Shown here in pieces: positions 3,019 to 44,744 of a stretch of 48,653 nucleotides of DNA. Made by a program: the position numbers and the translations under genes. The DNA is taken from assembly GCA_016839365.1 (NCBI GenBank), contig JAEOUH010000020.1, positions 1-48,653 on the forward strand, written 5' to 3'. The notes beneath the pieces were generated by a model, which worked only from the letters and a program-made list of their open reading frames with translations, made no database searches and was not told where the DNA came from. How positions within the stretch are numbered: position 1 is the stretch's first letter; each line of letters begins with the position of its first letter. Origin of the DNA: Candidatus Hermodarchaeota archaeon. Its GTDB lineage: Archaea > Asgardarchaeota > Hermodarchaeia > Hermodarchaeales > Hermodarchaeaceae.

Positions 3019-3846
3019 TTATTCACTTGGAATGTCTCTCCTTCGATAGACTCGCTTTTTATACCGGTACTCGTTGATTGTTAGCAAATCCATGACCTTC
3101 AGGGGCTCTCTTTTCACAAGATTACGGCAGGCTCGATAGGCTATCCAATAGGAATTCTTATTGCCACTGCTCACCAATTCCTCAACGAGAGTATACACTA
3201 GGTCAGGAATCCGACGGGCTAAATCGCTAAGGTTATTCCCTACTGAAGTTCGAGGATAAGGTTCGGACTCCTTGAACAGATGTCTGAGGATTGACACTGA
3301 ATATTCAGGGTTCGAGTAGATCCATTGATTTTCTTGGACAGGACGGAGCGTTTCAGCAACGAATCGTCGTAAATTCGCTTCCCCCGATTTTACCGAGGTT
3401 AATAAAAATGGTCTTACCTCATGAGGGTACCCTCTGGTAAGTTTCCGAAAGAACATCTGTGCAAATTCACGAATCTCCCATTCAGGCGAAGCCGCTGCTT
3501 CTGCAAAATAAGGTAAAACGACTTGATACTGCGATAATCCATGGTATGAAAGAACTCCCAGGGTTACTCCTTTAGTGCGCCACTCTTCACCTTTCTCAAA
3601 TAATCGACGTGCAATCTCAAATACTGATGCCTTGTGATTTTGTAGTTTAGTGTGTAGGTACTCGCTGAGAATCTTAATGGTATACACTCGTCCATATGAA
3701 ATCCTACGCTTTTCCGGAATATTGCCATATAATTGATCTAGGATCTTGGGAAGAGAGGTAATGGCTGAATCGTAATCATTATGCAGTATAGGTTGTAAAA
3801 CCTGTTGATTAATGCGATTTTCGATGTGTGAATCTATCAGATTCAT
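3019..3846 (-). CDS. HEAT-repeat protein, DNA alkylation repeat (AlkC/AlkD)-like
   Basis: The protein (275 aa) is entirely helical with repeated HEAT-like pairs. The segments NLRRFVAETLRPV and SVGNNLSDLARRIPD resemble the AlkC/AlkD pattern, where short HEAT repeats grip alkylated DNA and release N3/N7-alkylpurines. I cannot place the catalytic Asp/Trp of AlkD with certainty, so it may be a non-catalytic HEAT scaffold. The ATG at 3846 lies 30-33 bases from a good TATA box (CTTATAAA on this strand), so the transcript is probably leaderless. It is divergent from the TFB gene. Confidence 0.6.
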   Translation of the reverse strand: MNLIDSHIENRINQQVLQPILHNDYDSAITSLPKILDQLYGNIPEKRRISYGRVYTIKILSEYLHTKLQNHKASVFEIARRLFEKGEEWRTKGVTLGVLSYHGLSQYQVVLPYFAEAAASPEWEIREFAQMFFRKLTRGYPHEVRPFLLTSVKSGEANLRRFVAETLRPVQENQWIYSNPEYSVSILRHLFKESEPYPRTSVGNNLSDLARRIPDLVYTLVEELVSSGNKNSYWIAYRACRNLVKREPLKVMDLLTINEYRYKKRVYRRRDIPSE

Positions 3847-3875
3847 CGGTAGCGCAAACCTTCAAAAATTTGGTG

Positions 3876-3883
3876 TTTATAAG
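3876..3883 (-). promoter_or_regulatory. TATA box for the HEAT-repeat gene
   Basis: CTTATAAA on the minus strand lies about 30 bases before the ATG at 3846, the usual archaeal TATA-to-TSS distance, which suggests a leaderless or nearly leaderless mRNA. Confidence 0.55.
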
Positions 3884-3919
3884 CACAAGTTGATGTTTTT
3901 GGTGCTATTATTGCGGAGT

Positions 3920-36566: not shown

Positions 36567-37325
36567 ATGTCCAAACTCCGGTGCCCTGAGTGCCTTGTTC
36601 AGTTGGAATCCCAAGACGCCGTCTGCCCCCAGTGTGGATATCGAATTCGGACGGAGCAGTTCGAACGCATCCTTCCTTTTATGAAACGTCCCGAACAACA
36701 ATGGGAAAGTCGACTAACTTTATGGCAACGACTCTGGGGCGTGCTTCGCTTTCCTTCCATTGCTTTTTGGGATATCGCACACGACACAGATACACGCGGA
36801 CCAGCTTTGATTTTCTTGGGAAATCTTGCAGCCATCTCGCTTTGGTATGTTGCAATGGCGCTACACGTTGTTGATGCTGGCCCTCTGCTCTTGTACGGGT
36901 TTGTTGGAGTATTTGCAATTCTGTCGTTGTTATACCTACTCTTGAACCTAGTGTATTTCGGAATCATGCATGCGATAATCAACTATTCTGGTCGTGAGGG
37001 GGATTTCTCGAAAACCTTTCTCATGGGGCAGTACGCGCTGTTTCCGTTTCTTCTTACGAATCTTCTCTCATTTGGGCTTCTCTCCGTCGGTCTTCCTCCC
37101 ACTACCTGGGCAAACATGACGGTTTTGTACCTTCATCCCATATGGCTAGCAGTCTACGCACTTGCCAGCATTGCAGTCTTATGGGGCGCTCTGATTTTAT
37201 CACTAGGAATCCGTGAAAGCTATCGGATGCCTTCAATGACTGCCCTAATCATCACTATGAGTGTTACTCTTTTTATCGTCGTAGTGGCGATCTTAGTTCG
37301 GTTGACCGTTATTCCGATTATTTAA
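36567..37325 (+). CDS. Yip1-domain membrane protein with N-terminal zinc ribbon
   Basis: The 252-residue protein starts with a zinc ribbon (CPECLVQLESQDAVCPQCG, residues 5-23), then a cytosolic linker and five hydrophobic segments with the Yip1-family look (LWQRLWGVLRFPSIAFWDI ahead of the first membrane span). In eukaryotes Yip1 proteins sit in ER-Golgi membranes and bind Rab GTPases; prokaryotic members are uncharacterised. Its last eight bases overlap the end of the convergent E1 gene, placing it at the edge of the ubiquitin-ESCRT locus. Confidence 0.82.
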   Translation: MSKLRCPECLVQLESQDAVCPQCGYRIRTEQFERILPFMKRPEQQWESRLTLWQRLWGVLRFPSIAFWDIAHDTDTRGPALIFLGNLAAISLWYVAMALHVVDAGPLLLYGFVGVFAILSLLYLLLNLVYFGIMHAIINYSGREGDFSKTFLMGQYALFPFLLTNLLSFGLLSVGLPPTTWANMTVLYLHPIWLAVYALASIAVLWGALILSLGIRESYRMPSMTALIITMSVTLFIVVVAILVRLTVIPII

Positions 37326-38361
37326 AGACAGCCAACAGTTTCAATGGTTGTGCTAGTGCAGCATCAATGATAAAAAGCGGTTCTTTGTCTTTCATCCGAA
37401 GTTTTCCAAAGACCTGTTCATCCTCTAAGACTTTCCCACGCAAGATGATTTTGGGATCTTGCATTCCGAAGGTCATAATCAATCTGTTTTTCAATTCTGC
37501 CACAGTTTCTTTCCGACCTACTGCGTAGATTTCACCTTCCAGGCGGAATCGGTCACTACATAAAAAGCAATTGGGGTTTCGGGCGAGTTTCAGAATTGTG
37601 AATTGCTGATGAAGGCTGTCATAGAAGAGATAATTGTCAAGGGGAGATCCCACCCCTAGAAGTTGTTTCAAAACTTCTTGAAACTGAATTCCTGCTATTA
37701 TGGTGGCGACGCTGAGGAGGGCGGGGAACTTGGGAAGTGGTTCTTCCACTTTCCTTTGTTTTCCTGGAGGCGTACAAGCTTTTTGTAAGCGTTCAGCAGG
37801 CACCAATGGTTGGCATTCCAGGCAGGCAGTGTCAAAAGGAACAACACGTTGAACATTCCCCCACCAACCATACATACCCCCATGAATGAAGACTTTATTC
37901 TTTTGGACGCAAAGTGAGTTCAACCAACGTCGGGCCTCAAAGGTATCAAGCCCATCAACAATCAGGTCCGCTTCCTCATAGATGGAGTGACGCACATCTT
38001 GGATTGCGCAGTTTAAGGCAAGTACATGTACATCTGGGTTCATTTCACGAAGCCGTTGGCCCGCAACGACAGCTTTTGCTTTGCCTACATCTTCATCATG
38101 GTACAAGAATTGGCGACTTAGATTCGATAATTCGATCGTATCAAAGTCAATTATTACAACCTTGCCAATTCCAGTGAGAACCAAATCCACAGCAATGATT
38201 GTGCCTAAGGCTCCCATACCTGCTACGACAACCGTTGACTGTGAGAGTTTTTCCTGATTCCAATCGTCTAGGAGTAATTGACGGGCATACCTCTCAGTGC
38301 CATGATACACGGGGACCTTTTTTTTCTGTTCGACAACCTGCTCATCCATGGCTAATTTCAT
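37318..38361 (-). CDS. E1-like ubiquitin-activating enzyme with C-terminal ubiquitin-fold domain
   Basis: E1 adenylates the C-terminal glycine of the ubiquitin-like protein and then carries it as a thioester. The ThiF/MoeB-type adenylation domain shows GMGALG (48-53), IDFDTIELSNLSRQF (71-85) and VDGLDTFEARRWLN. Structural zinc cysteines are Cys180/183 and Cys265/268. Cys196 (KACTPPG) sits where eukaryotic E1s have the catalytic Cys followed by Thr. Residues 275-335 form a ubiquitin-fold domain that, as in eukaryotic E1, would recruit E2. The ATG at 38361 overlaps the E2 stop (ATGA), so the two are translationally coupled. Confidence 0.92.
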   Translation of the reverse strand: MKLAMDEQVVEQKKKVPVYHGTERYARQLLLDDWNQEKLSQSTVVVAGMGALGTIIAVDLVLTGIGKVVIIDFDTIELSNLSRQFLYHDEDVGKAKAVVAGQRLREMNPDVHVLALNCAIQDVRHSIYEEADLIVDGLDTFEARRWLNSLCVQKNKVFIHGGMYGWWGNVQRVVPFDTACLECQPLVPAERLQKACTPPGKQRKVEEPLPKFPALLSVATIIAGIQFQEVLKQLLGVGSPLDNYLFYDSLHQQFTILKLARNPNCFLCSDRFRLEGEIYAVGRKETVAELKNRLIMTFGMQDPKIILRGKVLEDEQVFGKLRMKDKEPLFIIDAALAQPLKLLAVFK

Positions 38362-38819
38362 CCTCGTTGTATCTGATCCCAACCAGCAAAGCGTTTCACC
38401 CAATCTTTAGCTGTGCGCTCAAAGGCTATTGGGTTCTGCTTTGCTTCCCGTGATGCCCGTTGATTCAAAGGATCGTCAGGATTGGGGAAATTTAAAAGAT
38501 TACGAAGCGTTTCCACGACACCGGTAAGTGACATGCTGGGGAGCCAATCTTTTCCTAAAATACCCACACAGACTCGACTTCTATAGATATTGGGATGCCA
38601 TATCTGAGTGATAAATTGTACCTGTGGGGGTTCATAAGGGAAGGATCGGGGAACATTGATTTGTACAACAAAGACACCATTATCATAAATACCAGTGCCC
38701 AGAATAAATCCACGCCATCGTCGGAGGTCGCCTTGGATAGGCTGGAACGACGGTTCCTCGGTTTCCATATTCTTAGCTTCAAGGGCTAATCTTGCCCAAT
38801 AATCCTCTTCTGATAACAT
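38358..38819 (-). CDS. E2-like ubiquitin-conjugating enzyme, catalytic
   Basis: A 153-residue UBC domain. The fold markers are clear: WRGFILG, the PxxPP strand (SFPYEPPQVQF), WHPNIY with HPN at 75-77, the catalytic Cys84 (RVCVGIL), W92 and PDDPLNQRASREA with the C-terminal helices. It accepts the ubiquitin-like protein from E1 and passes it to targets with the small RING protein. It follows the ubiquitin-like gene after 198 bases and overlaps the E1 start. Confidence 0.95.
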   Translation of the reverse strand: MLSEEDYWARLALEAKNMETEEPSFQPIQGDLRRWRGFILGTGIYDNGVFVVQINVPRSFPYEPPQVQFITQIWHPNIYRSRVCVGILGKDWLPSMSLTGVVETLRNLLNFPNPDDPLNQRASREAKQNPIAFERTAKDWVKRFAGWDQIQRG

Positions 38820-39017
38820 GTGGACAGCGCCTCTGCCTAGATAAGCCGGTCCCCATTACACTAACCAATTGCGTATGTCGTAAATACCTTTTCGGTTGGT
38901 AGTGATAGAAATTTCATTTGCTCAAGGCAAACGCAGAATGCATCAGGTCCTAATATTAAGGGATGAGGATAAAATAGGGGGGGCGACTGAGATCGAAACC
39001 GTTAGGTTTAGCTAGTC

Positions 39018-39254
39018 CTAGCCGCCCTCTGTCCTCGTAATGAGGTACAGCTTATCGTGGGGTGTGATGCCAACACTCTTGATTGTCTGTTCATCGGTTA
39101 GTTGGGCTCCACGGTATGCGAGGATAACGATGTTTGGCGGTATCCGGCGCATTTGAGCCACACGGTTCCGAATCTCCCCAACCGTAGTGTTTGGTTCGAC
39201 TTCAAGAGCAATGGGGTCACTGCCACCAATCGCTGGTACAACTTCTATTCGCAT
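39018..39254 (-). CDS. Ubiquitin-like protein ending in Gly-Gly
   Basis: A 78-residue beta-grasp protein with ubiquitin-like order: IEVVP, VGEIRNRVAQMRRIPPN (the main helix and following loop), VILAYRGAQLTDEQTIKSVG and DKLYLI. It ends RTEGG with the stop directly after, so it is made already mature and needs no peptidase to expose the Gly-Gly used for conjugation. The internal acceptor lysine is limited to Lys59 and Lys68 by my count, so chain formation may differ from eukaryotic ubiquitin. It lies 13 bases after the RING gene. Confidence 0.93.
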   Translation of the reverse strand: MRIEVVPAIGGSDPIALEVEPNTTVGEIRNRVAQMRRIPPNIVILAYRGAQLTDEQTIKSVGITPHDKLYLITRTEGG

Positions 39255-39267
39255 TTTTAACCACCGA

Positions 39268-39519
39268 CTATTTTCTAACCGGTTTCAACCTTCGTATGTT
39301 AATGCGGTGCCGACAGATGGGACAAGAGCCTTTCATCTTCACCCATTCTGCTAGATGTCGATAATGGGCAGGATTCCCGCAATGCGGGCAATGGACCATT
39401 TGTTCACCATCACGGATTTGGAGCCGACAGACACAACACATGTCAGTGGACTTGGTCCAATCCCATCGGCCAATTTCTTTCACCGATGAAATAACGAACC
39501 GTCCCGCTGCTTGTGTCAT
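39268..39519 (-). CDS. Small RING-finger protein, candidate E3 ubiquitin ligase
   Basis: From ATG 39519 (AAGGGG seven bases upstream) the protein is 83 aa. Its zinc ligands are Cys28, Cys31, Cys44, Cys47, His52, His55, Cys66 and Cys69, with W59 and CPIC as in RING-H2 fingers. RING E3s bind E2 and the target without a covalent intermediate. The frame stays open up to a TTG at 39663, which would add 48 residues, but that start is too close to the likely TATA box. It heads the order RING-Ub-E2-E1. Confidence 0.88.
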   Translation of the reverse strand: MTQAAGRFVISSVKEIGRWDWTKSTDMCCVCRLQIRDGEQMVHCPHCGNPAHYRHLAEWVKMKGSCPICRHRINIRRLKPVRK

Positions 39520-39665
39520 GGTTAGGCCCCTTATTCGGTTCCGCTTGGGCTTTTCTTCTAGATGCGTTCTTAAAAAACTATGGAAATGCGGCAACCCCAA
39601 GTGTGATTCTGGATTTTTCGTGAATGACCCAGTCTTTTCTAATCTTTTCACCAAACGAATCAAAG

Positions 39666-39673
39666 CTTAAAAG
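39666..39673. promoter_or_regulatory. Shared TATA-like element between the ubiquitin and ESCRT operons
   Basis: CTTAAAAG reads as a weak TATA box in both directions. It lies about 50 bases before the GTG of the plus-strand operon and 147 bases before the RING ATG on the minus strand. It is the best promoter candidate seen in this divergent region, but the match is weak. Confidence 0.35.
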
Positions 39674-39720
39674 TCTGAGGTGAGTAAACTTGAATGAGAG
39701 CTTCGGGGGTTACTTGAATC

Positions 39721-40257
39721 GTGTCCGCTGATCCACCCAAATATGCGATAGAAATTGAAGCCATCAAAACGCCAAAGGGGTTAGTCCCTACTGTCGAGTC
39801 CCTGAAGCGTATTGTGAAAGGTTTGAACTTACTCGATTCTGACCTTGGACGGATGAATCTAAAGATGGAGGCGAATATTCGAGCCCTCCTCCGGGAGGTC
39901 AAAACATTGCAGAAGCTGGTAGCTGATGATACCATCGCGTCGGAGTCTTCGGTTGAACGGTTGGGCGTATTGGTCGACCGGTTCGAGGACTTGGAGAAGA
40001 CCATGGATAAAGTCGCGAAAAGCAAACCCGAATCAGGTTCCAAGGAATTACGGGAACTGCAGAAGGAACTTGTTCCCACCTTGACTCAGGCCGTGCAGCG
40101 ACTTGAGGAAATGGTCACTATCTTTGAAACGCGGTTTGAGGAATTTCTCCGCGAACTTCAGGGAAATATCTTGATTACCGTCCGACAAGCCGTTAAAGCG
40201 GAAACGCCTAAAAAGAATGTGCTGTCCAAGAAGAAGACTAAGAGTAGTTCAACATAA
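39721..40257 (+). CDS. Coiled-coil protein, first gene of the ESCRT operon
   Basis: A 178-residue helical protein starting at GTG 39721. Coiled-coil patterns run through about 20-75 and 85-150 (VERLGVLVDRFEDLEKTMD), and the tail is basic and Ser/Lys-rich (KKNVLSKKKTKSSS). It does not look like ESCRT-III, which has a basic N-terminal helix bundle and C-terminal MIM motif. ESCRT-I in eukaryotes needs a coiled-coil subunit (Vps37) beside Vps23 and Vps28, and this gene precedes both, so it may supply that role. This is inference from position and shape. Confidence 0.72.
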   Translation: MSADPPKYAIEIEAIKTPKGLVPTVESLKRIVKGLNLLDSDLGRMNLKMEANIRALLREVKTLQKLVADDTIASESSVERLGVLVDRFEDLEKTMDKVAKSKPESGSKELRELQKELVPTLTQAVQRLEEMVTIFETRFEEFLRELQGNILITVRQAVKAETPKKNVLSKKKTKSSST

Positions 40258-40340
40258 CTTACTTTGGCAGGCTCTAGTTGCCAAAGATTAAATGTCCGCT
40301 CTCACAGGAAGAATTCAAACAGATATCATGGTGTGTTTCA

Positions 40341-41096
40341 ATGGCACAGGCTATGAGAAGTCAAACAGAATTGGCGATTGCACGCGAAGCCCAGTTAATG
40401 TACCGTCGTGCACCCACCTTTGCGCCCGTTGAGTCCAATCTCCGTCGTTGGCGTGGGAAGATTAAGGGTGGACCACGGGGTAAAGACGAGTTTCTCGTCG
40501 AGATCATTGTCCCTGCAAACTTTCCAGCTCAACCACCAGTTGCTCGAATGCTTGCTCCAACAAAACATCCCCGAGTCGACTCTGAGTCTGGAGCTATCCA
40601 TCTTCGAATAGTTACTCAATGGCAACCTCATTATCACGTCTACCAGGTGGTTAATAGCATCAAGGGTCTTTTCGCCCGCGAACCTCCTGTGCCAGATGCA
40701 ACCCGAGAAGTTCCAAAGGTTACAATGCCTCCCGAAGAGGAAGTCCTCCAACAACGCTTTCAGCAGCTTGAACGCGATGTCTCAAGCCTTACTAAGAAGG
40801 TACAGGACCGTGATGAACAAATCGCCCGAATGTCTGCTCAAATCGACACGGGGTCGTTAACTACTGGCGAAGTCACTGACGAAGAAGAACTCGATGCACT
40901 GATTCTTCCAACGGATGCAAAAGAAAGGGAGAAGCTTGAGCTCGAGAGTGAAAAACTAGCCATCTCTGACCTTTTACAGAATCTTGAGCAGAAGTTTGAT
41001 GCTGCAGAAATTACCTCCACTGAATATACTAAGTTGTACAAACGATACAAGAAACGACTCTACCAAATCGACAAAGCGCTTGAAAAATATCAATAA
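40341..41096 (+). CDS. ESCRT-I Vps23/TSG101-like protein: UEV, coiled coil and steadiness box
   Basis: ATG 40341 is preferred because GGTGT precedes it and the E2 fold starts right after; a TTG at 40278 would add 21 residues. Residues 5-115 are an E2-like UEV domain (NLRRWRGKIKG, FPAQPPVARML, KHPRV). The E2 catalytic Cys is replaced by His87 (GAIHLRIV), so it can bind but not transfer ubiquitin. A coiled coil follows (about 130-165), then a steadiness box (185-251: LILPTDAKEREKLELESEKL, then AISDLLQNLEQKF), matching the Vps23 ESCRT-I core. The domain order is that of TSG101. The unit likely reads ubiquitinated cargo and passes it to ESCRT-II. Confidence 0.92.
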   Translation: MAQAMRSQTELAIAREAQLMYRRAPTFAPVESNLRRWRGKIKGGPRGKDEFLVEIIVPANFPAQPPVARMLAPTKHPRVDSESGAIHLRIVTQWQPHYHVYQVVNSIKGLFAREPPVPDATREVPKVTMPPEEEVLQQRFQQLERDVSSLTKKVQDRDEQIARMSAQIDTGSLTTGEVTDEEELDALILPTDAKEREKLELESEKLAISDLLQNLEQKFDAAEITSTEYTKLYKRYKKRLYQIDKALEKYQ

Positions 41097-41120
41097 AACA
41101 GTCATTCAGAGTCGATTGCT

Positions 41121-41768
41121 ATGGCAGTGCGTGAAAAGAAACGACAAAAACCGGCTAAGGTTGTTGAATTGGAGGCAGAACTCTATGGCACGATAGCAAC
41201 TCTTGACAGTATTTCTGAGAAGTTCGATGAGGGTGATCTTCAACCCGCAATCTACAAACGTCAATTCAAATCCCTTGTCCGAGATACCATCAAGACACGT
41301 CAAATACTTGAGGCAGAGGGTGAAAGTTGGGACCAGTTCGTCGAGGATGAAAAGATTGTCGAACGGTTTCCCACTGCAGTCGAGAAACTCCAACTTGAAC
41401 AGCGTGCTCCTGAAGGAGAAGAAACTGTTAAACTAGCTCCCCAGACTTCTGCTCGAATGGCGGCGAAAACAGCAGATATTGTCTCGGATTTAATTACACT
41501 TATTGATATCGCCAAACTCGGTGACGTAGCAAAAATGAGCCTTATTGTACCACTCTTGGATGATGCTATCATTCTGCTGACAAAGTATCCTAACTTCCCA
41601 CCCCAGTATTGGATTCTGGTAGCGCTCAAAGATTGGCGGAACCAGCTGCAAGACCGCGATCCTCATGAAACCCTTTCACCTGAAGAGGCTAAACAGTTGG
41701 AGTTCCAAGCGGTCCGATGGCTGAATGATTTCAAGCGACGGCTCCGAGAGATGGCGGTTGATGAATAG
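41121..41768 (+). CDS. ESCRT-I Vps28-like protein with both core and C-terminal domains
   Basis: The 215-residue protein aligns by eye with eukaryotic Vps28 along its length. The core half has ELYGTIATLDSISEKFDEGD and later WDQFVEDEKIVERFPTAVEKL is read in parts, where Vps28 has a helix ending in CPLAMERI. The C-terminal half has TADIVSDLITLIDIAKLG, FPPQYW and a final helix LNDFKRRL, matching the four-helix Vps28 C-terminal domain that contacts ESCRT-II. It lies 24 bases after the Vps23-like gene. Confidence 0.85.
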   Translation: MAVREKKRQKPAKVVELEAELYGTIATLDSISEKFDEGDLQPAIYKRQFKSLVRDTIKTRQILEAEGESWDQFVEDEKIVERFPTAVEKLQLEQRAPEGEETVKLAPQTSARMAAKTADIVSDLITLIDIAKLGDVAKMSLIVPLLDDAIILLTKYPNFPPQYWILVALKDWRNQLQDRDPHETLSPEEAKQLEFQAVRWLNDFKRRLREMAVDE

Positions 41769-41787
41769 ATGTTGAGGCAGAAAGCTG

Positions 41788-42081
41788 ATGGTACACCCAA
41801 TGCGTTCCTTTGCAGAAATGCGCGAACGGTTGGTGAACGCCATCAATAAAGCGAATCTGCGCATCAACGCTGAATACATCCTAGAAGATTTAGACGTTGT
41901 CGCTGCCTTTGCGGAAGCGATGCTCGGTCCCGATCACCCGGTCACCCAAGAAACCCAGGAATGGTACGAATACTTCTGGGCAAAATATGGTAACAATCTT
42001 ACCCAACATGTGGAGGAATTAGAAGCGCGACGATTCGCAATGCGAGCTGAAACCTGGCTCAACTATATTCGGCAAATATGA
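41788..42081 (+). CDS. Small helical protein inside the ESCRT operon
   Basis: A 97-residue protein starting at ATG 41788 with GAGG upstream. It is predicted to be all helical, rich in Ala, Glu and Trp/Tyr (EWYEYFWAKYG, ETWLNYIRQI), with no known motif. Gaps of 19 bases before and 13 after show it belongs to the operon between Vps28-like and Vps22-like genes. It could be an extra ESCRT-I or ESCRT-II subunit or a linker between them. Confidence 0.75.
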   Translation: MVHPMRSFAEMRERLVNAINKANLRINAEYILEDLDVVAAFAEAMLGPDHPVTQETQEWYEYFWAKYGNNLTQHVEELEARRFAMRAETWLNYIRQI

Positions 42082-42094
42082 GGAGGAACATCAG

Positions 42095-42829
42095 ATGGGA
42101 CTTTGGGAAATCGAAAAGCAAATGGAAATGGATGCCGCCTACAAGAAGAAACGTGTTGAGCTCATGCTCAAAGAACTCGAACTCATGCTCCAAACAATTT
42201 CAGAACTACGCGATAAAGCAGACGCCTTCGAACAAACCTATGGGGAAGTCATCGAAGTCTCCCCAGAATATAGTGATAAGGCCGCTGCCATCGCCCACGA
42301 ACTCGGTATCACTATGCCGGGTATTCCATTCTCTGAAGACATGAAAGAAAAACCAGGTCTAATGGAACGGCTCACAGGTCGTGGTCGATTCTATGACGAA
42401 CTCGGTCTCCAAATCCTAGATATCGCCAAGCGACGACGGGAGGCTACAGGAGGCATCATGACACTGGCGGAAATTGTTCTCATCGTTAATAAACAAAGAC
42501 GTTCAAGTGTCTCCCAAGTCGATGTCGCCAAAGCCATCCAAAACCTTGCGAATGCCAAACTCATTCCAGGCATCCGAAAACTACCATCAGGGATTCGCAT
42601 TGTCGAACTGGTCCCACGAGAACTCACCAACGACCAGGTTGCCGTCCTCTCCCTCGCTAGTCGGTCCGGCTACACCACTCTGGAAGAAGTTATGACCCAA
42701 ACCAACTGGGCTCAAGAACGGGCCGATGCAGCCCTCAAAAGCCTTGAATCTGTTGGAGCTGCAAAAATCGATGAGTCCTTTGTCCATGGAAAACGGTACT
42801 TCTTTCCTGGACTCAATCCAACGGAATAA
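42095..42829 (+). CDS. ESCRT-II Vps22/EAP30-like protein
   Basis: This 244-residue protein matches EAP30/SNF8 in order: an N-terminal helical hairpin (25-70), then GRFYDELGLQILDIAKRRR near 95-113 (human: GDFYYELGVQIIEV), GGIMTLAEI, and two winged-helix domains ending SGYTTLEEVMTQTNW and GKRYFFPGL (human: NGYVTVSEI, HYWLPAL). In ESCRT-II Vps22 pairs with Vps36 and Vps25 copies. No Vps36 is seen here. GAGGAGGAAC precedes the ATG. It converges on the Vps25-like gene, 18 bases away. Confidence 0.93.
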   Translation: MGLWEIEKQMEMDAAYKKKRVELMLKELELMLQTISELRDKADAFEQTYGEVIEVSPEYSDKAAAIAHELGITMPGIPFSEDMKEKPGLMERLTGRGRFYDELGLQILDIAKRRREATGGIMTLAEIVLIVNKQRRSSVSQVDVAKAIQNLANAKLIPGIRKLPSGIRIVELVPRELTNDQVAVLSLASRSGYTTLEEVMTQTNWAQERADAALKSLESVGAAKIDESFVHGKRYFFPGLNPTE

Positions 42830-42847
42830 TTCGATTCTAATAGATCA

Positions 42848-43576
42848 TTAGACGAGAACTTCGACCACTTCACGTTCTCGGTCCAACCATTTTGCCTGTT
42901 TACGCTCAACCAGGCGTTCTAAGATAATGCGTAACTCGGATTTAGGTAAGCTAGCCAAATCTTTTCGATATTCCTTCAGTTTAAAGAGCGTAAAGGTGGT
43001 TCGTCCAGTTTTCAACGCCCATTGACGAATCTCGTTCGCCCATTCATCATCCGTCTTCCAGGTAATCCGGACAATCCCTTCTGCCTCGTCAATCCATCGT
43101 CCAAGCTCTTCTTTCACAAGCACGCCAAGGATAATCTTCACGGCCTTTATCCGGTCTGGGCGGATGTCATTGAAGGGATCCAACATGACCAGGGTGCGCG
43201 TCGAAACAATGTGTAACAGCATTTCACGGCAATAATCGACGGTGAACCCAGCCCATTCTGCACCCCATTGTTCGATATCAGATTCGGAGGTGGGAATGAC
43301 AAACATAAACCCGTACCGACCGCGTTTCGCAATCCATACAAATCGTTGACCCAGCTTTTCAACCACTTGCTGAGCCAGTTGTTCAAGCTGTTTTTCTTCC
43401 TCTTCGGTAACTGGCATGACCAGAACAGCCGTCTCGTCTTCTTGTTCTAGGCTTTTCATGTGTTCACGTGTCTTCTTGAGAAGGTCCAACCAATCTTCTT
43501 CTGTGAGCTCCGTATCTGCACGAAGATCATCTTTCTCCTTCTCTTTCACACGTTCCCGGGGCTTTTCCTTCGACAC
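42848..43576 (-). CDS. ESCRT-II Vps25-like protein with charged N-terminal extension
   Basis: GTG 43576 follows TAGGGG, which overlaps the Vps4 stop, so translation is coupled to Vps4. The C-terminal half is a tandem winged-helix Vps25 domain: IRPDRIKAVKIILGVLVKEE, WIDEAEGIVRITWKTDDEW (human: WLDKSKSSFLIMWRRPEEW), TTFTLFKL (human: SVFTLYEL) and LRIILERLVERKQAKWLD. A 90-100 residue Lys/Glu-rich and partly coiled-coil extension precedes it, which human Vps25 (176 aa) lacks. It would link ESCRT-II to ESCRT-III. Confidence 0.9.
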   Translation of the reverse strand: MSKEKPRERVKEKEKDDLRADTELTEEDWLDLLKKTREHMKSLEQEDETAVLVMPVTEEEEKQLEQLAQQVVEKLGQRFVWIAKRGRYGFMFVIPTSESDIEQWGAEWAGFTVDYCREMLLHIVSTRTLVMLDPFNDIRPDRIKAVKIILGVLVKEELGRWIDEAEGIVRITWKTDDEWANEIRQWALKTGRTTFTLFKLKEYRKDLASLPKSELRIILERLVERKQAKWLDREREVVEVLV

Positions 43577-43586
43577 GTTTGTTCCC

Positions 43587-44744
43587 CTATGAACCATGGG
43601 TGTTATCCCATTCAATATATCGCGCTTGCTCTTCAGGTGACACGACCGATCGGATGTTTTGCAAAGCCTCAAGGAAATCTTGCAGATTTACCGCCCTGGC
43701 CATGACTTCTTTATCGCGAATGGCACCTGATGCATCTAATTCACGAATGGGTTGCAGGGACGCCTCTCGGCAAATGAGTGCGATATCTGAGCCCGCGTAT
43801 CCATCAGTTTTTTCACCGAGGAAGTTAAAGTCCACATCCGGCGCCAAATCAATGCCCTTGGTATGAATCTCGAAGATCCGCACCCGGGCCTCAAATTCCG
43901 GAATCGGCACCAAAATTCGTCGCTCAAACCGCCGACGAAACGCCGCATCCAGATCCCATGGACGATTCGTAGCACCTAACACGACGATATGATCATCCTT
44001 CTTGCTCTTCATCCCATCCATCTCAATTAAGAACTGTGTTTTCAACCGCCGCTCACCGCCCACCTGATCCGCACCACGTTCCGCAGTCAGCGCATCGACT
44101 TCGTCCATAAACACAATCGCTGGCTGCTCTTTTCGGGCTGACATGAAGAGATTTTTTACTAGCCGCTCAGATTCACCCAGCCACTTCGAAACAAGAGACG
44201 CTGCATCTGCGTTGAAGAAAGTACAACCCGCTTCATTTGCCACCGCTTTGGCGATTAGGGTCTTTCCACAGCCCGGTGGACCGAAGATCAACACGCCTTT
44301 CCACGGGCGCCTAGCCCCCGTAAACAAGTCAGGCCGTAATAACGGTAAGATGACGGATTCGCGGAGCGCTTGTTTTGCTTCCTCAAGGTTCGCCACGTCC
44401 TCCCACTTGACATCAGGTTTCTCTTTGATAATCATGCTATCGATGTCTTCTTGCAGTTCCTTCTCATCCTGATCTTCAATCTCCACTCCCTCAAAGTCAG
44501 GGGCTGGTCCCCCCGCAGGGATCCTTGCACTCCTCAAAGTCTTCGCACGCGCCACATATTGATCAGCGCGCTCAAGGGCGATTCGACGGAGTTGTGGATT
44601 CTTGGATACTTTCATGACCCGCACGAGGATATCAGCGGCTTCAATGTACTTGGACATCGCCGCAGAGCGCTTCCCCTGCTGGTCTAAGACTAGGGCTTCA
44701 TTGGCTTTTGCTTCGGCAAGCTGAAACATCGCTGAGCTGGTCAA
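43587..44744 (-). CDS. vps4: Vps4-type AAA ATPase with MIT domain
   Basis: Vps4 disassembles ESCRT-III polymers using ATP. An N-terminal MIT three-helix domain (1-75, with ALVLDQQGKRSAAMSKYIEA) should bind the C-terminal tails of ESCRT-III. The AAA domain has Walker A GPPGCGKT (155-162), Walker B IVFMDE (210-215), sensor GATNRPWDLD and arginine fingers FRRRFERR. At 385 aa it is full length, ending IEWDNTHGS. Start is TTG 44744 or ATG 44729. It precedes the Vps25-like gene on the minus strand. No ESCRT-III gene adjoins it here. Confidence 0.95.
   Translation of the reverse strand: MTSSAMFQLAEAKANEALVLDQQGKRSAAMSKYIEAADILVRVMKVSKNPQLRRIALERADQYVARAKTLRSARIPAGGPAPDFEGVEIEDQDEKELQEDIDSMIIKEKPDVKWEDVANLEEAKQALRESVILPLLRPDLFTGARRPWKGVLIFGPPGCGKTLIAKAVANEAGCTFFNADAASLVSKWLGESERLVKNLFMSARKEQPAIVFMDEVDALTAERGADQVGGERRLKTQFLIEMDGMKSKKDDHIVVLGATNRPWDLDAAFRRRFERRILVPIPEFEARVRIFEIHTKGIDLAPDVDFNFLGEKTDGYAGSDIALICREASLQPIRELDASGAIRDKEVMARAVNLQDFLEALQNIRSVVSPEEQARYIEWDNTHGS

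Follow-up and report, generated by a model that had tools for sequence, protein, structure and literature searches.

A predicted hairpin-coiled-coil protein at the centre of a Hermodarchaeal ubiquitin–ESCRT island is a candidate partner of small RING proteins

The stretch of DNA analysed here (the window) is the complete 48,653-base contig C71 of a Hermodarchaeal genome of 2.2 Mb that is 84% complete. (G, C, L and f below label genomes, contigs, loci and families, respectively.) An annotation made earlier from the bare sequence, referred to as the original prediction, had correctly assigned it to the Asgard archaea and had pointed to a locus of ubiquitin and endosomal sorting complex required for transport (ESCRT) genes. 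Eleven genes fill this island, at positions 37318–44744 of the window (Table 1). They form three gene runs, and not two operons as had been proposed: from the centre outward, the minus strand carries a small RING protein, ubiquitin, E2 and E1; the plus strand carries a predicted hairpin-coiled-coil protein (39721–40257), for which we use the shorthand CC, followed by Vps23, Vps28, a stand-alone Vps28 C-terminal domain (Vps28-C) of 97 residues and Vps22; and a minus-strand pair, Vps4 then Vps25, faces Vps22. The tight gaps that had been described are present between most adjacent genes, which are 10–24 bases apart, and at the E2/E1 junction, where the genes overlap as ATGA provided that E1 starts at 38361. 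They are absent between ubiquitin and E2 (198 bases) and from the divergent RING/CC gap (201 bases). Because of the 198-base distance, E2 and E1 might have a promoter of their own. We infer the start sites, and the gene runs as operons, from the sequence; a bacterial-type promoter scan carries no meaning for an archaeon.

Searches with Pfam profiles, which had been put forward as a check on the Vps28-like, Vps22-like and Vps25-like proteins in particular, supported the identities of RING, ubiquitin, E2, E1, Vps23, Vps28, Vps22, Vps25 and Vps4, with some matches below the cut-off. The synteny comparison proposed alongside them found the island again in seven other genomes of the family (G001–G007), whole or cut by contig ends, so the block is not a chance arrangement, and published Asgard clusters have the same pairings. 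The list of named genes was thus sound; it had overlooked the genes at 39721–40257 (+) and 41788–42081 (+), the former at the head-to-head junction. Completeness had been overstated, as the ESCRT-III pair, the PH/steadiness-box protein and the JAMM protein are on other contigs. Moreover, because such islands have been published for other Asgard lineages, the main point was already known, and the completeness and divergent layout, presented as the value of the locus, are not new. The island is a new member of a known Asgard ubiquitin–ESCRT kind, for which a ubiquitin-driven ESCRT pathway would be the best reading. Its least explained part is the CC gene at the head-to-head junction.

CC had no Pfam match over the cut-off. 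Its relatives have a TPxGxVPT signature near the N-terminus, followed by a coiled coil that diverges. In a 24-row alignment, P23 was the sole invariant residue, with T17, P18, G20, V22 and T24 conserved in at least 90%; in an 18-row subset, from which six divergent or cut rows were excluded, T17, P18, G20, V22 and P23 were invariant. An AlphaFold model with a mean predicted local distance difference test score (pLDDT) of 78 has strands at residues 14–17 and 20–23 and helices at 25–100 and 109–159, that is, a predicted β-hairpin at 14–23 formed by the signature, plus two long helices. When the CC sequence was compared with solved structures, the 60 matches listed of 369 were assorted coiled coils, none of which reached the hairpin.

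A six-frame search with a profile of the CC N-terminus found matches in 61 of 227 Asgard genomes, reduced to 60 when G019, with only a long unrelated-looking protein, was dropped. The 71 hairpin matches comprised 62 stand-alone copies and 9 in long proteins. When one genome per species (84,980 species) was scanned with patterns drawn from a subset of 7 rows, 19 CC loci were confirmed, 18 of which carry Asgard names or Asgard isolate labels; the remaining one, named Crenarchaeota, probably corresponds to G023, which is placed in the window's own phylum. Searches of the open literature (supplements excluded) brought up nothing on the family, which, having no name, was searchable only indirectly. 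A CC-like stretch also occurs near the C-terminus of the proteins at L160 (1547–3445, +; profile E 2e-06) and L161 (1391–3322, +; 2e-04), which resemble GTP-dependent PEPCK. The resemblance to the CC signature is probably a local convergence, and both proteins were treated as unrelated and excluded from the CC counts, as was G019.

Gene neighbourhoods were counted for 60 of the 62 CC copies (G129 and G120:C209 were not covered) in stretches of 2–20 kb. A small RING gene lay within 1.5 kb of 44 of the 62 stand-alone copies. The arrangement was divergent in 24, RING first in 10 and CC first in 9 of 43 RING-linked copies, with G121 as the 44th, and the link extended across 13 family labels (f1, f4, f10, f11, f12, f13, f16, f21, f23, f25, f26, f27 and f29). 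Eight CC copies, in families f14, f16 and f19, abut a shorter E1-like gene (G023, G030, G037, G043, G048, G053, G058 and G062); seven of these genomes had no match to the small RING at E ≤ 1e-8, and G048 had a weak one. Nine f23 genomes and one f21 copy have a two-gene RING-CC pair, around which no E1, ubiquitin or Vps gene was found in 3.3–18 kb, with a weak PH/steadiness-box match in G131. Of the 60 stretches, 28 contain a Vps23, Vps28, Vps22, Vps25 or Vps4 gene, and in 18 of them such a gene is no more than 1.5 kb from CC; these counts exclude G027, G047 and G052, where the matches were due to a stray coiled-coil row (L094) in the 25-row Vps28 profile. In G041 and G057, CC faces RING-ubiquitin-E2-E1, and Vps23, Vps28 and Vps22 are on other contigs. 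The Vps28 search gave no match in 7 of 28 CC genomes. The f14/f16 pairs of CC and E1-like genes at L095, L179, L183 and L087 lie within a run of other genes that, judged by eye, resembles primase large subunit, ScpA/ScpB-like and SMC-like genes.

The hairpin thus accompanies RING and E1 whether ESCRT genes are nearby or not, and we therefore read CC as a probable accessory subunit that acts in ligation. Such a role is the most likely one given the gene linkage and a single-chain model. Overall, we lean, with a little more confidence than doubt, towards a Hermodarchaeal island of known kind, likely leading from ubiquitin tagging to ESCRT, in which CC most likely partners the small RING protein and not ESCRT-I. 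A number of observations weigh against this. The signature is kept only in part by some CC members (L185, L187 and L188), the model has a predicted template modelling score (pTM) of 0.35, and Foldseek returned 27 matches to it at E ≤ 10 but none at E ≤ 0.001. Five copies have neither RING nor E1 in the stretch (G011, G013, G027, G047 and G052), three are at contig ends (G012, G020 and G034), and one of the 44 RING neighbours, that of G120:C153, crosses two stop codons and was not recovered as an open reading frame (ORF) in the later neighbourhood survey. The presence of CC in 45 of the 46 genomes that have a full-length small RING (E ≤ 1e-21) speaks for the partnership, but this proportion is biased upward, since RINGs located next to CC were used to build the RING profile (A4). 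Related genomes count as non-independent, and many genomes are incomplete. A gene of the PH/steadiness-box family, which published work has suggested to belong to ESCRT-I, is found 3.7–4.1 kb from CC in G020, G034, G041, G057 and G198, none of which has a Vps gene near CC. Finally, the partner is not always a small RING, because CC stands beside E1-like genes in genomes that lack one.

Alternatively, CC may be a general partner of the E1 step, a protein that docks or recruits E1 or E2 and whose RING linkage merely reflects the operon. In eight genomes where CC has no small RING close by, it adjoins or overlaps an E1-like gene, and in G139 genes for an E1-like protein and for a UFC1-family E2 are found close to a fusion of the hairpin to an AAA ATPase; the f23 CC-RING pairs, however, have no E1 in the stretch covered, and we regard this explanation as rather unlikely. 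Some probability must also be left to an ESCRT-I role, because CC lies 20 bases upstream of Vps23, at the head of the ESCRT run, and a Vps gene is nearby in 18 of 60 stretches. CC would then be the missing third subunit, taking the place of Vps37 in a Vps23–Vps28–CC stalk. The predicted helical structure is consistent with this, the available text of Hatano et al. 2022 (PMC9192718) reports that Asgard archaea have no Vps37, and the five additional genomes with a PH/steadiness-box gene could be counted in its favour. However, hhalign showed no link between CC and the Asgard Vps28, Vps23, Vps22, Vps25, ESCRT-III or PH/steadiness-box profiles (probability ≤ 4.1, < 2 for Vps22, and < 1 for Vps23, Vps28 and PH/steadiness-box; the comparison did not include eukaryotic Vps37), in f23 the only pairing of CC is with RING, and a quarter of the CC genomes searched (the 7 of 28 above) had no Vps28 match. 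Linkage also tracks RING and E1 more than Vps. An identity of CC as Vps37 or another ESCRT-I part thus found no support from the Asgard profiles compared, and we hold it to be distinctly improbable. Least probable of all is that this is an ordinary Asgard cluster and CC a lineage coiled-coil protein that takes part in neither pathway. Such clusters are indeed published, and coiled-coil sequences match many unrelated chains through their composition; yet the hairpin signature is conserved between families whose coiled coils have diverged, and the CC gene keeps adjoining RING or E1 through three gene orders.

If CC is a partner of the RING ligase, the island would serve tagging, reading and cutting in that order, and CC would belong to the tagging half. 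Ubiquitin would be activated by E1 and handed to E2, from which RING would direct its transfer to the target. CC may dock on the ligase side through the conserved TPxGxVPT hairpin, while its coiled coil oligomerises or holds the substrate. Recognition of the ubiquitin would fall to the UEV domain of Vps23. Vps28, aided by the additional Vps28-C protein, would link Vps23 to Vps22 and Vps25, and ESCRT-III, with its genes outside the island, would act with Vps4 to cut the membrane. No trimming should be needed, because the ubiquitin in the window already ends in GG. Tail-less GG ubiquitin occurs in the window's family and several others, and a short tail is found elsewhere, for example SVKY in G010, which also has a CC copy; such short-tailed ubiquitins would require trimming.

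The hairpin is also carried by seven AAA-ATPase proteins (three called by Pfam and four by the Vps4 profile). Five of their genes (L153–L157) are head-to-head with a RING of 74–77 residues, matching the CC/RING geometry of the window, and two (L158 and L159) are separated by one or two genes from an E1-like gene. It is conceivable, if short of an even chance, that Asgard ubiquitin ligases are made of two parts, a RING and a hairpin-CC scaffold or substrate holder, that the hairpin plugs an AAA ATPase into second systems, and that reconstitutions to date lacked CC.

L157 (G020:C406, 101–5719) is a second ubiquitin-type locus with ubiquitin-like, E2 and E1 genes, parts of which are seen in L153–L156. 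It also encodes a 290-residue protein with weak UBC, RWD and RING matches in a FANCL-like order, an M48-type protease with weak SprT and weak RING matches, and a 74-residue RING with the hairpin-AAA ATPase; the locus resembles a ubiquitin system of the repair or quality-control type. L169 (G043:C65, 1788–4272) has E1-like and CC genes beside a 103-residue protein that looks ubiquitin-like (no Pfam match), a JAB-type protease match below the cut-off and Sec61-beta; its E1-like gene resembles UBA5. L178 (G048:C91) is similar, judged by eye. At L158 (G139:C220), the E1-like gene is directly followed by a UFC1-family E2 (3360–3887, −; PF08694 1.3e-06, over the cut-off) and then by the hairpin-AAA fusion; the L159 counterpart of this E2 had no Pfam match. 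UFC1 was described as seen only in eukaryotes in the available part of a 2023 paper (PMC10183829).

Table 1. Genes of the island and the adjoining Yip1-domain gene, with positions in the window and supporting matches.
Feature	Position	Strand	Evidence
Yip1-domain membrane protein	36567..37325	+	PF04893 4.1e-12; Zn_ribbon_3 5.5e-04, below cut-off
E1-like ubiquitin-activating enzyme, ThiF + C-terminal ubiquitin-like stretch	37318..38361	-	PF00899 1.1e-62
E2 ubiquitin-conjugating enzyme, Cys84 after HPN motif	38358..38819	-	PF00179 (UQ_con) 2.5e-32
Ubiquitin, 78 aa, GG end without tail	39018..39254	-	PF00240 3.6e-12; C-termini compared
Small RING protein, likely 83 aa	39268..39519	-	zf-RING_2 5.1e-06, 27.1 bits vs cut-off 27.3
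Hairpin-coiled-coil (CC) protein, 178 aa, with IKTPKGLVPTVES	39721..40257	+	Family alignments, AlphaFold model
Vps23-like: UEV domain without E2 cysteine, coiled coil, putative steadiness box	40278..41096	+	UQ_con 7.9e-15
Vps28	41121..41768	+	PF03997 2.6e-13
Stand-alone Vps28 C-terminal domain, 97 aa	41788..42081	+	Profile similarity + four-helix fold of Vps28-C
Vps22 (EAP30), ESCRT-II	42095..42829	+	PF04157 2.9e-26
Vps25, ESCRT-II, likely 242 aa	42848..43576	-	PF05871 (ESCRT-II) 4.7e-10
Vps4 ATPase	43587..44744	-	AAA 1.8e-40, MIT 6.9e-10, Vps4_C 4e-06; Walker motifs

In the ubiquitin cascade, the E1 ORF opens at 38403, and it is the ATG at 38361 that overlaps the E2 stop. Residues 293–340 of E1 match PF00240 at 3e-04, below its cut-off, and Cys194, 197, 210, 279 and 282 (ORF numbering) are kept in all 15 rows, of 17, that have a residue there. 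The catalytic Cys84 of E2 is kept in 13 of 13 aligned rows. The small RING ORF opens at 39663, and relatives in the family have 81–83 residues; the start at 39519 is most likely. When the RING of the window was searched alone, 23 of 24 matches at E ≤ 10, with a best E of 0.045, were to RBX1, to RBX2 or to a single RING-type chain; this hint of an Rbx-like identity was gone with two family profiles and one relative, and it was not used. The Yip1-domain gene is convergent with E1 and overlaps it by 8 bases. It adjoins E1 in 9 rows (the window counted) of one neighbourhood comparison and 7 of another, in families f1, f4, f12 and f21.

Among the ESCRT genes, the Vps23-like protein matched Vps23_core (1.7e-04; 21.9 bits, cut-off 26.8) and UEV (1.8e-04), both below the cut-off, and it contains just two cysteines, at positions 6 and 19, hence an E2 fold without the catalytic cysteine. 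Vps28 matches were found in 77 of 99 genomes. The Vps25 ORF opens at 43672, and its relatives in G003 and G004 have 242 residues, making 43576 the most likely start. Iterated profiles ran E2, Vps23 and the PH/steadiness-box family together, as they did the 97-residue family and Vps28; later counts use stricter families. Both ESCRT-III copies found lie outside the window on contig C7, convergent with a gene for a 494-residue protein whose weak PH and Vps23_core matches are below their cut-offs and which would fit the Znr_PH_CC_SB protein of Makarova et al. The JAMM protein is on contig C60. In the sister genus, ESCRT-III adjoins Vps4 in G005, G006 and G007; it is followed by a strong PH/steadiness-box profile match in G007 and, in G005, by a gene of equal length (498 residues).

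Eukaryotic cells owe ubiquitin-to-ESCRT sorting to Asgard roots, and current work reconstitutes the pathway in vitro with parts chosen by their known domains. A protein like CC, which has no Pfam family and yet stands beside RING or E1 across many Asgard families, is a concrete candidate for a missing part, through which target choice by archaeal RING ligases becomes directly testable.

Several Asgard systems offer a comparison; statements about the papers cited refer to the parts of their text that were available. Hatano et al. 2022 (PMC9192718) found the full ubiquitin–ESCRT set in one Odinarchaeum cluster and clustering also in Hel- and Heimdallarchaea, and reported ubiquitin–UEV binding and a Vps23–Vps28 complex. 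Makarova et al. 2024 (PMC10936438) described Vps25 as codirected with Vps4, and Vps22 with Vps23 and Vps28, as well as stand-alone Vps28-C genes. The island is like these clusters (Odinarchaeum yellowstonii and others) in its Vps4-Vps25 and Vps22-Vps23-Vps28 pairings beside E1, E2, ubiquitin and RING. It differs in being Hermodarchaeal, in having the ESCRT-III pair elsewhere, a placement that varies among the published lineages, and in its extra Vps28-C gene and tail-less ubiquitin. Vps23 and Vps28 are adjacent here, whereas the ESCRT-I genes of Hatano et al. were not tightly clustered. According to Makarova et al., Hermodarchaeia "have none", where the text is ambiguous between unusual ESCRT families and all ESCRT; the core ESCRT set is plainly present in this Hermodarchaeal genome. 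The gene at 41788–42081, between Vps28 and Vps22, aligns to and folds like Vps28-C and differs by sequence divergence only. No mention of the CC gene was found in the parts of either paper covered. CC resembles Vps37 in being small, predicted helical and encoded beside Vps23, and departs from it in having no profile link to Asgard ESCRT families (eukaryotic Vps37 not being among the profiles compared) and a linkage that follows RING/E1 more than Vps. The tagging half of the island resembles the operon of Caldiarchaeum subterraneum, in which E1, E2, ubiquitin and a small RING are in one run and E1 carries a C-terminal ubiquitin-like (UBL) domain (Hennell James et al. 2017, PMC5654768). There, the tail of pro-ubiquitin is cut by the neighbouring Rpn11, whereas here ubiquitin ends in GG and the JAMM protein is encoded on another contig.

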